A DNA stretch of 64,000 nucleotides from an uncultured Enterorhabdus sp. (GCA_947649205.1 CANSQM010000014.1:1-64000); one strand, 5' to 3'. Positions 23,659-59,772 are shown, numbered from the stretch's first letter. Numbers and translations: made by a program. Notes: generated by a model from the sequence alone, not told the origin.

Positions 23659-25149
23659 TTAATCGTTCTCCGTCTCGCCGAAGGCGCGGATGAGCTCCTC
23701 GGCGGCCACCTGGCGGTCATCGAAGGCGAGCACCTCGTCCCCTACCAGCTGGTAGTCCTCGTGTCCCTTGCCGGCGAGCAGGATGGCGTCCCCCGGCTCG
23801 GCGGCGGCGATGGCGGCGGCGATGGCGGCGCGGCGGTCGGGCTCCACGATGAAGCCCTCGGCCCCCTCCATGCCGGCCAGGATATCGTCGATGATGGCCT
23901 GCGGGTCCTCACGGCGCGGATTGTCGCTCGTCACCACGGCCAGCTCGGCGGCCAGGGCCGCCTGGCCCATGATGGGGCGCTTGGTTGCATCGCGGTTGCC
24001 GCCGCAGCCGAAGACCACGATGGTGCGGCCCGTGCTGAAGGCCTGGATGGAGGCGATGGCCTTGGCCAGGGCGTCCGGCGTGTGGGCGTAGTCCACGTAC
24101 ACGGTCACCGGAGCCGCGGCCGGGGCCGGCACCTGCTCCAGGCGCCCGGGCACCGGCGGCATGGTGGCCAGGGCCCGCACGATGACGTCGGCGGGAATGC
24201 CGAGGGACAGGGCGCACCCGAAGGCGGTCATGACGTTCTCCAGGTTGAAGCGGCCCACGAGCGGGTAGGTCACTTCCACGCGGGCACCGCGCACCTCCAG
24301 GGTGGCCACGGTGCGCGTAGCCTCGAAGGCCACCTCCAACGGGTGGATCTGGGCGGTCATATCGAAGCCGGTGGTGATGACCTCGTCGCCGGCCTCGGTG
24401 CAGCGGCGCAAAAGCTCGCGGCCCCAGGCGCCGTCGATGTTGATGACGCGACGGGCCGGGTAGGCCGCCGAGAACAGCAGGGCCTTGGCCTCGAAGTAGT
24501 CGTCGAAGGTATGGTGGTAGTCCAGGTGGTCCTGGGTGAGGTTGGTGAAGGCGGTGACAGCGAAGTCGGTGCCCCAGGTGCGCTTGAGATCGAGGGCGTG
24601 GGAGCTCACTTCCATGGTCACCACGGTGCAGCCGGCGTCGCGCATCCGCGCGAACAGCTTCTGCAGATCGGGGGATTCCGGCGTCGTGTGGTCGGATTTC
24701 TCCATGACCCCGGCGATCTTGTTGCCCACGGTGCCGATGACGCCGCAGCGGTTGCCCGCCATCTCGGCGATGTGTTCCACGAGGTAGGTCGTGGTGGTCT
24801 TGCCGTTGGTGCCCGTGATGCCCACGAGGGAGAAGTCCTCCGAGGGGTGATCGTAGAAGGCGGCGGCGGCGGCGGCCATGGCCTTGCGGGAATCGGCCAC
24901 CACCACCTCGGTCACGTCGGTGGCGTCGGCCAGGTACACCTTGCGCTCGGCCACGAGCGAGGTGGCGCCCCTATCGATGGCGTCCTGGGCGAAGGAGTGC
25001 CCGTCCACCACGTTGCCGACAATGCAGAAGAACATGTCGTCGGGACGGACGGCGTCGCTGCGGAAGGCGAGCCCCGCCACCTCCTCGCTACCGTCGCCGA
25101 TAATGGTGCATTCCATTCCTTGGAAGAGATCGTTTACGGTGTGGGTCAT
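23659..25149 (-). CDS. murE: UDP-MurNAc-tripeptide synthetase, meso-diaminopimelate type
   Basis: A 496-residue Mur ligase with ATP loop VGITGTNGKTTTTYLVE, TMEVSSHAL, DHLDYHHTFDDY, VDYAHTPDAL and GKGHEDYQ. The amino-acid-selecting motif is DNPRREDP (residues 409-416); DNPR is the form associated with meso-diaminopimelate, while L-lysine enzymes usually carry D(D/N)P(N/A). This bears on the wall chemistry discussed at the D-aspartate ligase operon. Confidence 0.96.
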   Translation of the reverse strand: MTHTVNDLFQGMECTIIGDGSEEVAGLAFRSDAVRPDDMFFCIVGNVVDGHSFAQDAIDRGATSLVAERKVYLADATDVTEVVVADSRKAMAAAAAAFYDHPSEDFSLVGITGTNGKTTTTYLVEHIAEMAGNRCGVIGTVGNKIAGVMEKSDHTTPESPDLQKLFARMRDAGCTVVTMEVSSHALDLKRTWGTDFAVTAFTNLTQDHLDYHHTFDDYFEAKALLFSAAYPARRVINIDGAWGRELLRRCTEAGDEVITTGFDMTAQIHPLEVAFEATRTVATLEVRGARVEVTYPLVGRFNLENVMTAFGCALSLGIPADVIVRALATMPPVPGRLEQVPAPAAAPVTVYVDYAHTPDALAKAIASIQAFSTGRTIVVFGCGGNRDATKRPIMGQAALAAELAVVTSDNPRREDPQAIIDDILAGMEGAEGFIVEPDRRAAIAAAIAAAEPGDAILLAGKGHEDYQLVGDEVLAFDDRQVAAEELIRAFGETEND

Positions 25150-54222: not shown

Positions 54223-55512
54223 ATGCCGCGCTACGCAGCCATGACGAAGGCGGAATTGGAGACCGAGCTCGCGGCCGTGCGGGCCCGCTACGACGAGATG
54301 GTCGCCCGGGGACTCGCGCTCAACATGGCCCGGGGCAAACCCTCGGCGGCTCAGTTGGAGCTGTCGCTGCCTCTGCTGGACGTACTGGACGCCGAGGCCG
54401 ATCTGACCGCCGAGGACGGCACCGACTGCCGCAACTACGGAGTGCTCGACGGCATTCCCGAGGCGAAGCGGCTCATGGCCACCCTGCTGGACGACGAGCC
54501 CGACAGCGTCATCGTGCTGGGCAATGCCTCGCTCACAGCCATGTACGACGCCCTGGTGCGCCTCATGCTGTTCGGCACTCAGGGCTCCGCGCCCTGGGGC
54601 CAACTGCCCGCGGTGAAGTGGCTGTGCCCCGTGCCCGGCTACGATCGGCACTTCACCATCTGCGAGGCTCTGGGCATCGAGATGATCCCCGTGCCCATGG
54701 ACGAGCACGGCCCGGACATGGACGAGGTGGAGCGCCTTGCGGGTGCCGACGATGCCGTGAAGGGCATCTGGTGCGTGCCGAAGTACTCGAACCCCACGGG
54801 TGTCACCTACTCCGACGAGGTGGTGCGCCGCCTGGCCTCCATGGCCTGCGCCGCGCCGGACTTCCGCATCTTCTGGGACAATGCCTATGCCGTGCACCAT
54901 TTCTCCGCCGAAGCCGCCGAGCAGGACCGTGTGCTCGACATTGCCGCGGCCTGCGCTGCGGCGGGCAACCCCGAGCGCTACCTGAAGTTCGGCTCCACCT
55001 CCAAGATCACCTTCCCCGGGGCCGGCGTGGCCGCCGTGGCGGCGAGCCCGGCCAACGTGGCCGAGATCAAGCGCCACATGAACGCCCAGGCCATCGGCCA
55101 CGACAAGCTGAACCAGCTGCGCCACGCCCGCTTTCTGGACGAGGGCCGCGGGCTCGCGTCCCACATGGCGGCCCACGGGGCGCTTATGGGGCCGAAGTTC
55201 GAGCTCGTGTGCCGACGCCTCGATGAGGAGCTGGGCGAGGCCGGCATTGCTACGTGGACGAACCCCCGGGGCGGCTACTTCGTGAGTTTCGAGGGGCCAG
55301 CAGGTACAGCTCGGCGCATCGTGGCGTTGGCGAAAGAGGCCGGCGTGACCATGACTGGCGCCGGCGCTACCTGGCCCTATGGCGACGACCCGAACGATTC
55401 CAACATCCGCATCGCCCCGTCGCTGCCGCCGCTCGAGGAACTGGATGCGGCCATGGACGTGTTCTGCTGCTGCGTGAAGCGCGCTGCCTTGGAGAAGATG
55501 CTCGCAGACTAA
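54223..55512 (+). CDS. PLP-dependent aminotransferase, aspartate aminotransferase-like
   Basis: A 429-residue fold-type I aminotransferase. Visible features: NMARGKPSAAQLELS near the N-terminus, PKYSNPTGVTYSDEVVRRL, FWDNAYAVHH (Asp for the PLP nitrogen and Tyr) and the PLP lysine in KFGSTSKITFPGAGVAAVA. The overall pattern fits the aspartate-aminotransferase subgroup (Pfam Asp_aminotransf), which makes L-Asp and 2-oxoglutarate from oxaloacetate and L-Glu in reverse. It lies just before a D-aspartate-ligase-like gene, racemase and asparagine synthase, so it may supply aspartate to them. GAAAGGA precedes the ATG. Confidence 0.88.
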   Translation: MPRYAAMTKAELETELAAVRARYDEMVARGLALNMARGKPSAAQLELSLPLLDVLDAEADLTAEDGTDCRNYGVLDGIPEAKRLMATLLDDEPDSVIVLGNASLTAMYDALVRLMLFGTQGSAPWGQLPAVKWLCPVPGYDRHFTICEALGIEMIPVPMDEHGPDMDEVERLAGADDAVKGIWCVPKYSNPTGVTYSDEVVRRLASMACAAPDFRIFWDNAYAVHHFSAEAAEQDRVLDIAAACAAAGNPERYLKFGSTSKITFPGAGVAAVAASPANVAEIKRHMNAQAIGHDKLNQLRHARFLDEGRGLASHMAAHGALMGPKFELVCRRLDEELGEAGIATWTNPRGGYFVSFEGPAGTARRIVALAKEAGVTMTGAGATWPYGDDPNDSNIRIAPSLPPLEELDAAMDVFCCCVKRAALEKMLAD

Positions 55513-55661
55513 ACAATCTGTCCGCGCGGGAGGGGCCGGCATCGTAAGGAAAAGTTACGGGGGTCTTACCATTTCTTCAGCTTTTGCTATGGGAAGCGTA
55601 ATGGGGGCGGCCCCTACCATGGAACCTGGACGGAACGATACGAGTTCAGGAGTTGAGCGCC

Positions 55662-57092
55662 ATGGAGAAGACGGACGCCCCCGATGTGCTGCCGGTGATA
55701 CTGGGAGGCGATATCGGTGCCTACAGCCTGGCCCGGGCCTTCCACGAGGCCTACGGCATCGTATCCCTCGTTCTGTCCCAGAGTCACAGCCATATGTGCG
55801 GCGACTCCTCCATTCTGGTGAACCGCACTATCCCCTATCTCGAGCGGCGCGAGGTGCTGCTGTCAGCCCTGGCCGACGTGGCCGAGTGCTTCGATCACCG
55901 CCCGTTGCTGCTACTCGGCTGCGGCGACTGGTACGTGCGGGCCATCGTGGAGAACCGTGCGGCCCTGGAGCCATCGTTCATCATCCCCTATATCGGCGAG
56001 GATCTGCTGAACCGGCTCACGGATAAGGACCGCTTCTACGAGCTGTGCGCCTCGGTGGGCGTGCCGACGCCCCGCACGGTCGTAGTGGATGCGGACGACC
56101 CGCAGCTCGACCCCGCCGGCCTGGCCCTTCCCTTCCCCTTCCCCGTCGTGGCCAAGCCCGCCTCTTCGGCGGCCTACCACTATGCCGACTTCCCTGAGAA
56201 GGAGAAGGTGTTCTTCCTGCGCGACAACACGGAGCTCGCGACTGCGTTGGAGGCCGTCCGACGCAGCTCCTATCAGGGAAAGTTCCTCATCCAGGAGACC
56301 ATCCCGGGGGACGACACCCACATGCGCATCCTCACCACCTATTCCGACCAGACGGGAAAGGTACGCTTCGCCGCCTTCGGCCAGACGCTTTTGGAAGACA
56401 TGCGGCCCATGGGCGTGGGCAACCCCCTGGCCATCGTGAGCCGTGTGGACGAGACCGTCGTGGCCGAGGCGACGCGGCTTTTAGAGGCCGTGGGCTACAC
56501 CGGCTTCGCGAACTTCGACATCAAGGTTGACCCGCGCGACGGCAGCCATGTGTTCTTCGAGATAAACACGCGGCTCGGCCGCAGCAACTACTACGTTACG
56601 GCCGCGGGCCATAACGTGGGCCGCCTGCTCGTAGAAGACCTGGTGGAAGGGCGCCCCTTCCCCGATGAGGTGCAGATCGCCCGCGGGCGCGACGCGCTGT
56701 ACACCGTCGTGCCGAAGCCCATCCTGATGGACTACATCCGGGATGCGGCTCTGCGTCGCGAGGTAGCGGGTCTCTACGCCCTCGGCTGCGATGCCGATCC
56801 CCTCGATTACGACGGAGAGCGCCGCTGGCGCCGGCGCCTGTACCCCGCGGTATTTGCCCTCAAGCAGTGGCGCACCTGCCGCCGCGCCCTGGCCGCCAAG
56901 CGAGCGCGGGAAGAGAGCGGAGAGACCTCTTTCGGGTGCGGGGTTACCCCGCACCCGGCCCGTGCCGAGCACGGGCCGGCGGCCGGCGAGGACCGCAGCG
57001 GCGCACAGGAGCATGCTGCGCCTTCCGCCGGCATTCCTGAGCCCACCACGCTCAAGGGAGCCGAGGACTGCTGTGCGGGAGCGGCCCTGTGA
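55662..57092 (+). CDS. ATP-grasp ligase resembling D-aspartate ligase
   Basis: A 476-residue ATP-grasp protein. It starts VLPVILGGDIGAYSLARAFH, a pattern I associate with D-aspartate ligases (Aslfm/AslA) that add D-Asp to the third residue of the wall stem peptide. ATP-grasp landmarks are LTDKDRFYELC, FPVVAKPAS (ATP lysine), LIQETIPGDDTHMRI and FFEINTRLGRSNYY (metal Glu and Asn). A low-complexity tail of about 55 residues follows. The ATG at 55662 has AGGAG 9 nt upstream. The stop overlaps the racemase start (GTGA). The substrate is inferred from resemblance and neighbours. Confidence 0.82.
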   Translation: MEKTDAPDVLPVILGGDIGAYSLARAFHEAYGIVSLVLSQSHSHMCGDSSILVNRTIPYLERREVLLSALADVAECFDHRPLLLLGCGDWYVRAIVENRAALEPSFIIPYIGEDLLNRLTDKDRFYELCASVGVPTPRTVVVDADDPQLDPAGLALPFPFPVVAKPASSAAYHYADFPEKEKVFFLRDNTELATALEAVRRSSYQGKFLIQETIPGDDTHMRILTTYSDQTGKVRFAAFGQTLLEDMRPMGVGNPLAIVSRVDETVVAEATRLLEAVGYTGFANFDIKVDPRDGSHVFFEINTRLGRSNYYVTAAGHNVGRLLVEDLVEGRPFPDEVQIARGRDALYTVVPKPILMDYIRDAALRREVAGLYALGCDADPLDYDGERRWRRRLYPAVFALKQWRTCRRALAAKRAREESGETSFGCGVTPHPARAEHGPAAGEDRSGAQEHAAPSAGIPEPTTLKGAEDCCAGAAL

Positions 57093-57820
57093 CCGCGCAC
57101 TTGGTGGGCGTGCTCGGCGGGGTAGGACCGGGCGCGACGGCCCACTTCCTGCAGCGCCTCGTCGAGCGCACCGACGCCCGCTGCGACCAGGACCACGTGC
57201 GCACCCTGGCCTTCAACGACACGGCCATCCCCGATCGCACGGCGTTCCTCACGGGCGCGAGCTCCCGGTCCCCGGTAGCGGCGCTCATCGAGGACGGGCA
57301 GCTGCTCGCCGCCTGCGGGTGCGATCTTCTGGCCCTGCCCTGCAACACGGCCCACTCGTTCTTCGACGAGGTGCAGAGCGCCCTCTCTGTCCCCCTCATC
57401 CACATGGTGCGCGAGGCCATGGCCGCAACGGCCGCGGCGGGCCTGCGCCAGGTGGGCGTGCTGGCCACAGCCGGCACCGTGCTCGCCGACGTCTACGGTC
57501 GCGCGGGCGCCGAGGCGGGCGTGGCGTGCCGCTACCCCGATCGCGCGGGACAGCGGGCCGTAAGCTCGGTCATCTTCGACCAGGTGAAAGCGGGACTGCC
57601 CGTTGACCCGACCGCCCTGGACGGGCTGGCCGCGCCCTTTTGCGCCATGGGCTGCGACGGCGTGGTGCTCGGCTGCACCGAGCTGTCGCTGGCCTTCGGC
57701 GGTCGCAGCGAGGCGGCGGGGCTGCCTGTGGTAGACGCCCTGGACGTGTTGGCCGATCGCGTCATCGAGCACGCCGGACGCCCGTTGAAGAACTCCGAAA
57801 TCTTGCCACTTTACAACTAG
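57089..57820 (+). CDS. Aspartate/glutamate racemase family protein
   Basis: A 243-residue PLP-independent racemase with the two catalytic cysteines in place: Cys85 (LALPCNTAHSF) and Cys196 (VVLGCTELSL). GVLGGVGPGATAHFLQRL at the start is the aspartate-racemase pattern rather than MurI. Overlap with the ligase gene implies co-translation, so it most likely makes D-Asp for that ligase. Start is GTG. Confidence 0.9.
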   Translation: MTAHLVGVLGGVGPGATAHFLQRLVERTDARCDQDHVRTLAFNDTAIPDRTAFLTGASSRSPVAALIEDGQLLAACGCDLLALPCNTAHSFFDEVQSALSVPLIHMVREAMAATAAAGLRQVGVLATAGTVLADVYGRAGAEAGVACRYPDRAGQRAVSSVIFDQVKAGLPVDPTALDGLAAPFCAMGCDGVVLGCTELSLAFGGRSEAAGLPVVDALDVLADRVIEHAGRPLKNSEILPLYN

Positions 57821-57912
57821 TCATTTTACCTGCGGATTCTTCTTGTTTTACCAGGTCAATGGCTTGGCAAGTTTTCCGCGATTTGCAACACGACCATGCA
57901 GGAAGGAGCCCC

Positions 57913-59772
57913 ATGTGCGGCTTTGTAGGATTCGCCGGAGAGGACGGCACCCTGGACCACCGGGCGGTGGTTCGCGCCATGGCCGACGCCATCGCCCACC
58001 GCGGCCCCGATGATGCGGGCTACTTCGCCGACGGGCGGGCGGCCCTGGGCTTCCGGCGCCTGGCCATCATCGATCTGGAGGGGGCCCATCAGCCCCTGCG
58101 CAACGAGGACGGATCCCTCGTGCTCGTCTTCAACGGCGAGATCTACAACTATCGAGAATTGCGGGAAACCCTCATCCGAGCCGGCCATCGCTTTTCCACG
58201 AACGGCGACGGCGAGGTGGTGCTCCATGGCTTCGAGCAGTGGGGGCCGGCGGTGCTCGATCGGCTGCGGGGCATGTTCGCCCTCGCCCTGTACCGCCCCG
58301 CCGACGGCGAGCTCTTCTTAGCCCGGGATGCCTTCGGCATCAAGCCCTTGTACTACGCGGAAGTCGGCCGGCGCATCGTGTTCGGCTCCGAGATCAAGGG
58401 ACTGCTCCCCTACCCGCGCCTGGAGCGGCGCCTGAACGAGCGACGGCTGCCCCACTACCTGTGCCTGGAGTACCTGCCCGACGAGGAGACCCTGTTCGCC
58501 GGCGTGCGCAAGTTGCCGGCCGGCCACTGGCTACGCTGGCGGGACGGCCGCACCGAATGCCGCCGCTGGTTTTCCCCGTCCTTCGCCCCCGACGAGAGTC
58601 GCAGCCTCGATGAGAGCGCCGAGGCCATCGCCGCGGTGCTGCACGAATCGGTGGCCGCCCATGCCGTGGCCGACGTGGAGGTGGGCTGCTTCCTGTCGGC
58701 CGGGGTGGATTCCAGCCTGGTAGCCCACGAGGCCGCACGGCTCATGGATGCCCGCACCTTCTCCATCGGCTACGGCGACGAGCGCTTCTCGGAACTGGGG
58801 GCGGCGGCCTCCTTCGCCCAGGCCGTCGGCTTGGCCAACGAGGGAAGCACCCTTGGCGCCGAGGAGTTCTTCGCCTCGGTGCCTGCCGTGCAGTACGCCC
58901 TGGACGAGCCCTTGCCCAACCCCTCGGCCGTGCCGCTGTACCACCTGTGCGCCCATGCCGCCCAGTCGGTGAAGGTGGTGCTGTCCGGCGAGGGGGCTGA
59001 CGAGCTGTTCGGCGGCTATCCCTACTACCAGGAATGCCTCGCCTTCGAGCCCTACATGGCCGTGCCCGCGCCCCTGCGCCGCGGCCTCGGGGCCGCGGCG
59101 GCCCATCTGCCGGCCGGCGTGCGAGGGCGCCGCTTCCTCATGCGGGGCGCCCGCCCCCTCTCCGAGCGCTACATCCGCCTGGAGTACAACTTTCCCTGGG
59201 CCGAGGCCCTCGGTCTGCTCACGGCGGAACGGGGCGCCTGCGGGGCGGCGGCTCCGGCCCCGTGGGAGGCCACAGCCCCCTTGTTCGCCGAGATCGGCGC
59301 CTCAGGCCCCGACGAGGTCTCCGCCATGCAGACCGCCGACATTATCACCTGGATGCAACAGGACATTCTCCTGAAGGCGGACAAGATGTCCATGGCCGCC
59401 TCCCTGGAGCTGCGCGTGCCCTTCCTCGATCGGGAGGTGTTCGCCGTGGCCCGCACGCTGCCTGCGGCCCTGCGGGTAACCCGGGGCGAGACGAAAGTGG
59501 CCCTGCGCCGCGCCGCCGCCCGCACCCTGCCGGCCGTCACGGCCGCCATGCCCAAGAAGGGCTTTCTCACCCCGCTTGCCCAGTGGCTGCGGGAAGAGCC
59601 CTGGGCCACCTCGGTGCGCGAGGCGTTCCACAGCGAGCGGGCCCGGGAGTTCTTCCGCACCGAACGCTTAGATGGGCTGTTGGACGAGCACCGGCGCGGC
59701 ACGCGTTCGAACATGAAGAAGATCTGGTCGGCCTACTGCTTCCTCATCTGGCACGAGCAGTACTTCAGATAA
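57913..59772 (+). CDS. asnB: Asparagine synthase (glutamine-hydrolysing) family amidotransferase
   Basis: A 619-residue enzyme: class II glutaminase domain with N-terminal nucleophile Cys2 (MCGFVGFAG), RLAIIDLEGAHQP and FNGEIYNY, then the synthetase domain with the ATP loop FLSAGVDSS, LSGEGADELFGGYPYY and PKKGFLTPLAQWL. AGGAAGGAG lies 4 nt before the ATG. Free L-Asn synthesis is one option; given the ligase and racemase just upstream, amidation of a wall D-Asp branch (as AsnH does in Lactococcus) or of diaminopimelate is an equally good reading. Confidence 0.92.
   Translation: MCGFVGFAGEDGTLDHRAVVRAMADAIAHRGPDDAGYFADGRAALGFRRLAIIDLEGAHQPLRNEDGSLVLVFNGEIYNYRELRETLIRAGHRFSTNGDGEVVLHGFEQWGPAVLDRLRGMFALALYRPADGELFLARDAFGIKPLYYAEVGRRIVFGSEIKGLLPYPRLERRLNERRLPHYLCLEYLPDEETLFAGVRKLPAGHWLRWRDGRTECRRWFSPSFAPDESRSLDESAEAIAAVLHESVAAHAVADVEVGCFLSAGVDSSLVAHEAARLMDARTFSIGYGDERFSELGAAASFAQAVGLANEGSTLGAEEFFASVPAVQYALDEPLPNPSAVPLYHLCAHAAQSVKVVLSGEGADELFGGYPYYQECLAFEPYMAVPAPLRRGLGAAAAHLPAGVRGRRFLMRGARPLSERYIRLEYNFPWAEALGLLTAERGACGAAAPAPWEATAPLFAEIGASGPDEVSAMQTADIITWMQQDILLKADKMSMAASLELRVPFLDREVFAVARTLPAALRVTRGETKVALRRAAARTLPAVTAAMPKKGFLTPLAQWLREEPWATSVREAFHSERAREFFRTERLDGLLDEHRRGTRSNMKKIWSAYCFLIWHEQYFR

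Follow-up and report, generated by a model that had tools for sequence, protein, structure and literature searches.

Described aspartate branches and the locus under study

The closest described systems are AslA/RacD/AsnH of Lactococcus and lactobacilli, with Aslfm in Enterococcus faecium. Through lactobacillar copies in our tree, this system shares its ligase family with the locus reported here, and it resembles the latter further in that a racemase adjoins the ligase and an amidotransferase of the asparagine synthase family is involved. The known AslA/Aslfm enzymes act on L-lysine (L-ornithine in L. fermentum), whereas our ligase co-occurs with a MurE protein bearing the motif DNPR, in a diaminopimelic acid (DAP) genus. 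L. lactis has a racD-aslA operon in which only racD is placed with aslA (PMC4155827), while in our case the amidotransferase resides in the same operon too. The chemistry predicted below, i.e. meso-DAP carrying a dicarboxylic amino acid branch, is matched by the A4gamma type of Dermabacteraceae: Brachybacterium faecium has an A4gamma DAP peptidoglycan, and the wall of B. avium contains aspartate and meso-DAP (PMC3035206, PMC6090031). These walls are known from chemotaxonomy, with no ligase genes assigned (PMC6090031, PMC3035206). Finally, AsnB1 of L. plantarum and AsnB of Listeria belong to the same amidotransferase superfamily as the enzyme studied here and likewise stem from DAP organisms. 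Listeria AsnB, which we take to be a DAP amidotransferase, falls outside the clade of our enzyme, which is tied to the ligase.

The locus is part of a 64,000-nt stretch of DNA from an uncultured Enterorhabdus sp. (GCA_947649205.1 CANSQM010000014.1:1-64000), which was analysed as a whole and is termed the window. The genes of interest occupy positions 54223-59772:

54223-55512, plus strand: AAT, Rv3722c-type aspartate aminotransferase; adjacent, but judged to lie outside the cassette
55662-57092, plus strand: LIG, ATP-grasp ligase assigned by tree to the AslA (D-aspartate ligase) family
57089-57820, plus strand: RAC, aspartate racemase family protein (PF01177/TIGR00035) with Cys85 and Cys196 motifs
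57913-59772, plus strand: ASN, glutamine-dependent amidotransferase of the asparagine synthase family (TIGR01536), putatively AsnH-like by tree position
23695-25083, minus strand: MurE of the DAP-adding type, with motif DNPR; a context gene

The first four genes are adjacent on the plus strand, as an earlier note on this DNA had it, and all four reading frames are intact. LIG might alternatively start at an in-frame TTG (55653), and its stop codon and the start codon of RAC overlap (GTGA). Scans for promoters and terminators were uninformative.

The conserved unit comprises three genes, LIG-RAC-ASN. Their order and strand are the same at 43 of 79 named loci, for the most part clostridial, many of the remaining loci being cut by a contig end or missing one partner; the median gaps are 16 nt between LIG and RAC and 14.5 nt between RAC and ASN. 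Chance co-location is ruled out by the fixed order in these 43 loci. The earlier note had envisaged a four-gene route with AAT as part of the operon, supplying aspartate for the bridge. In the window and most of its genus, AAT, which scores 626 bits on NF053594 AAT_Rv3722c (cut-off 435), does precede LIG on the same strand at a distance of 149 bp. However, 55 of 60 relatives encode AAT, whether or not they contain LIG; mostly it lies away from the latter, which it adjoins only within the window's own genus. Moreover, LIG-RAC-ASN occurs without AAT in Parvibacter, in other Eggerthellaceae and in nearly all Clostridia loci. As AAT is near-universal in relatives and mostly encoded elsewhere, we place it outside the module and consider its dedication to the bridge extremely unlikely, such that only the LIG-RAC-ASN part of the proposed gene order stands. 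No fourth conserved gene was found around the clostridial cassettes except for flippases in some of them. In one genome (G023), a gene for a GatB subunit is situated directly upstream of LIG-RAC-ASN (L039:8318-9940).

Ligase family, wall gene neighbours and MurE background

Among the curated Pfam and NCBIfam models no family names LIG, and a structure search with its AlphaFold model (mean pLDDT 84.8) recovered only the general ATP-grasp fold, with ligases and carboxylases matched at E ~1e-14. Placement of the ligase relative to AslA and Aslfm, proposed earlier as a check, was obtained from a tree in which the enzymes of L. curvatus, L. crispatus and L. fermentum act as stand-ins for L. lactis AslA and E. 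faecium Aslfm: these lactobacillar ligases, one of them racemase-linked, are nested within the LIG family, which leaves out the closest other ATP-grasp proteins. In Latilactobacillus curvatus, the ligase gene follows a racemase gene, as it does in the racD-aslA operon of L. lactis (PMC4155827). LIG shares only 29% identity with the L. curvatus protein; FFEINTR and other invariant columns are kept across the family alignment. We read LIG as an AslA-like ATP-grasp enzyme, predicted to use D-aspartate. The protein consists of the family core of about 405 residues and a C-terminal tail of about 65 residues. The tail (window:56880-57089) is predicted with a confidence below 50 and is found in the window's genus but absent from the family core.

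In relatives, LIG is linked to genes of cell wall synthesis. At 13 of 34 Coriobacteriia loci, the gene for the lipid II flippase MurJ is no more than about 4 kb away from LIG, and at several of these it is directly upstream; under a crude model of random placement, 13 of 34 has a probability of ~1e-14. A murJ gene also immediately precedes the LIG gene at locus L189, whose LIG belongs to the window's clade. In six Oscillospiraceae, ASN is followed by a flippase matching both Polysacc_synt and MurJ, and in genome G039 LIG is located between a Mur ligase gene and murE.

The earlier claim that MurE of this organism carries DNPR is borne out (VTSDNPRRED), and the window's genome thus differs from the Lys-type, non-DNPR background of the characterized AslA and Aslfm enzymes. 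All 32 Eggerthellaceae MurE proteins with a read motif are of the DNPR type, and 22 of the respective genomes contain LIG. A scan of a collection of named genome contigs was run with a narrower LIG alignment, as the broad one contained no sufficiently conserved stretch; here, 22 of the 25 readable MurE proteins from LIG-containing genomes carry DNPR (21 clostridial ones and Propionicicella). The other three read DDPH (two Isoptericola) or NDNAH (the genome of L189). Outside the Eggerthellaceae, 11 of 12 genomes with a non-DNPR (Lys/Orn-type) MurE contain LIG vs 1 of 12 with DNPR (P 1e-4); five of these 12 DNPR genomes were assigned by MurE score, and with read motifs only the count is 1 of 7 (P 0.0017). 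Shared ancestry is ignored in these tests. On the LIG tree, MurE type switches at least five times. It follows that the ligase family is used repeatedly in both DNPR and non-DNPR cells and that its occurrence alongside a DNPR MurE is no accident of assembly. The MurE motif is a strong, if imperfect, guide to the diamino acid (PMC3829189). For the genus Adlercreutzia, DL- or LL-A2pm has been reported (PMC6113628), and for Eggerthella lenta an A1gamma meso-DAP peptidoglycan (PMC3035228). The latter report would conflict with our main reading if E. lenta carries LIG. Isoptericola features a different arrangement, in which two tandem LIG paralogs are followed by RAC and ASN is missing (L250:6646-9263, L252:6643-9263); it is conceivable that this pair builds a two-residue bridge.

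Proposed route and competing readings

We assign a probability of about 0.6 to the reading that LIG-RAC-ASN is a self-contained wall cassette, in which an AslA-like ligase adds D-aspartate to a meso-DAP precursor and ASN amidates it, yielding an A4gamma-like branch. RAC would convert L-aspartate to D-aspartate, which LIG would activate as acyl phosphate and join to residue 3 of the peptidoglycan precursor, presumably meso-DAP in this organism, at the free amino group of its side chain. The remaining carboxyl group would then be amidated by ASN with nitrogen from glutamine. The resulting D-Asn-type branch could serve as cross-link acceptor, as in A4gamma walls, or be left as a branch. What the sequences show is the gene content with intact catalytic motifs, the operon and its conservation, the family to which LIG belongs, the DNPR-type MurE and, in relatives, the linkage of LIG to flippase and mur genes; the substrate, the acceptor, the product, the order of amidation and the use in cross-linking are all inferred in this scheme. 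That D-aspartate is ligated in a meso-DAP organism, the core of the earlier note, is the best reading in view of the ligase family, the co-operonic RAC and ASN and the DNPR-type MurE; its presentation as an unusual chemistry needs correcting, the class having already been described for Brachybacterium.

For RAC, motifs CNT and GCTE hold the two cysteines Cys85 and Cys196, which are both kept in 57 of 60 homologs, and the solved aspartate racemase 1jfl is matched at 4e-42. Of 35 LIG-containing relatives, 19 yielded no RAC at E <= 1e-20, and some members of the ligase family may therefore use D-glutamate or obtain D-aspartate from another source. Five loci of other Eggerthellaceae (L049, L052, L054, L057 and L060) contain LIG and ASN in divergent orientation, in genomes without a RAC homolog at E <= 1e-20.

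ASN scores 465 bits on TIGR01536 and possesses Cys2 (MCGF) as well as the PP-loop (SAGVDS), which are present in 51 and all of its 54 homologs, respectively. The ligase-linked ASN clade is represented in 18 of 23 LIG-containing vs none of 13 LIG-free Eggerthellaceae (P 7e-6). In a quick tree calculated without bootstrap, its sister clade contains proteins from L. crispatus, L. curvatus, Collinsella aerofaciens and Planococcus; the L. crispatus copy is encoded beside LIG, that of L. curvatus beside murC and that of Collinsella aerofaciens beside murE. Listeria AsnB and E. coli AsnB fall outside both clades. With lactobacillar copies in the sister clade and Listeria AsnB lying outside, the tree, which was built without L. 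lactis AsnH and L. plantarum AsnB1, leans towards amidation of D-aspartate, as by AsnH, over amidation of DAP. Assignment of ASN as an N-acetylglutaminylglutamine amidotransferase (355 bits vs a cut-off of 570) or as an XrtA-type amidotransferase (score under the cut-off) was rejected. A second clade of the asparagine synthase family is present in Eggerthellaceae with or without LIG (L148, L149, L151-L154 and the ASN of L062) and could represent a DAP amidotransferase or an ordinary asparagine synthetase. In Collinsella aerofaciens (L283:5001-8555), asnB directly precedes murE, an arrangement that recalls the asnB1-murE pair of L. plantarum.

A different role for ASN is nevertheless compatible with our reading of the ligase: LIG and RAC might add D-aspartate to the DAP stem while ASN amidates the DAP carboxyl group. 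L. plantarum AsnB1, a member of the asparagine synthase family, amidates DAP (PMC4155827), the Adlercreutzia genomes contain a single close member of the ASN family, and ASN accompanies LIG mainly in DNPR genomes, being absent from most LIG-containing non-DNPR Coriobacteriia and from Isoptericola. We regard this role as rather unlikely, because ASN groups with proteins from L. crispatus and L. curvatus, in which DAP is unexpected, and away from Listeria AsnB, and because a separate ASN paralog in LIG-free Eggerthellaceae implies that DAP amidation needs no ligase-linked ASN. It also appears clearly improbable that the product of the cassette is not a peptidoglycan branch but, for instance, a small amidated dipeptide or a surface polymer modified with D-aspartate. 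Pairs of ATP-grasp and asparagine synthase-like enzymes do form N-acetylglutaminylglutamine amide, for which ASN reaches the subthreshold score given above, and the flanks of the clostridial cassettes are variable and seldom contain wall genes. Against such a product speak the lactobacillar wall ligases nested in the LIG family, the recurrence of MurJ, Mur ligases and MurJ-like flippases as neighbours, and the fact that LIG tracks MurE type outside the Eggerthellaceae. As to the substrate of LIG, D-glutamate is always at hand for wall synthesis and many LIG-containing relatives lack RAC; D-cysteate would come into play if RAC were a cysteate racemase, and RAC indeed scores narrowly above the cut-off of the NCBIfam CuyB model NF052483 (198.6 vs 190). 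With a score of 185, however, the ligase-linked racemase of L. curvatus behaves similarly, so that the model fails to separate the two roles, and RAC has LIG as its neighbour, overlaps it in the window and matches aspartate racemase. A CuyB role for RAC is hence not favoured, and we consider a D-amino acid other than D-aspartate very doubtful as the substrate of LIG.

Distribution, descent and significance

LIG was detected in 35 of 60 relatives, in all cases with E < 1e-60. It is present in 23 of 36 Eggerthellaceae examined, 18 of which combine it with the ligase-linked ASN. Adlercreutzia species are the nearest named relatives according to both scan and tree. Beyond Adlercreutzia, Parvibacter and other Eggerthellaceae, the contig scan found the closest LIG homologs in Oscillospiraceae, Lachnospiraceae and other Clostridia, and 24 of 147 genomes sampled from the order to which one clostridial carrier belongs contain LIG; many of the clostridial genomes are metagenome assemblies. 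With the cassette common in DNPR Clostridia and LIG widespread in Eggerthellaceae, the arrangement is no peculiarity of a single organism; the DNPR background itself is real. The earlier interpretation is thus partly supported, right in essence, too narrow in scope and wrong on the aminotransferase. DAP walls with aspartate were already known; what is new here is the breadth of a cassette predicted to combine DAP with D-aspartate, together with candidate enzymes.

The chances appear evenly balanced that a sizeable fraction of those gut Eggerthellaceae and Clostridia which are assumed to have directly cross-linked A1gamma walls decorate or bridge meso-DAP with amidated D-aspartate by means of a LIG-RAC-ASN cassette moved between the two phyla. 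If so, the wall bridge of many gut commensals would differ from that given in reference tables, with consequences for their cross-linking enzymes and hydrolases. NOD1, which reads D-Glu-meso-DAP, would probably sense fragments of these walls differently, since the DAP end would be substituted. DAP-plus-aspartate walls known only from chemical analysis would gain a candidate set of enzymes. As the cassette is found in many gut Clostridia whose DAP walls are usually assumed to be directly linked, a widespread wall chemistry may have been missed. A literature search, the scope of which left most subscription journals outside, yielded no muropeptide data for LIG-containing DNPR species and, within the same scope, nothing on aspartate in the walls of Adlercreutzia or Clostridia or on a D-aspartate ligase in DAP organisms; we take this absence of reports as a weak sign of novelty.

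In a maximum-likelihood tree, the ligases of Adlercreutzia and Parvibacter are nested inside those of Clostridia, which suggests a transfer from the latter. Two further LIG lineages exist in other Eggerthellaceae: the first falls among ligases from the remaining Coriobacteriia, the second (genomes G010 and G017) next to the lactobacillar ones. In one member of the window's genus (G005, L062:4459-11715), the same slot as in the window, between the SPFH gene and AAT, holds a different set of RAC, LIG and ASN along with murJ. The encoded cassette proteins are only ~35-40% identical to those of the window, and a non-orthologous cassette thus appears to have taken the place of the usual one.
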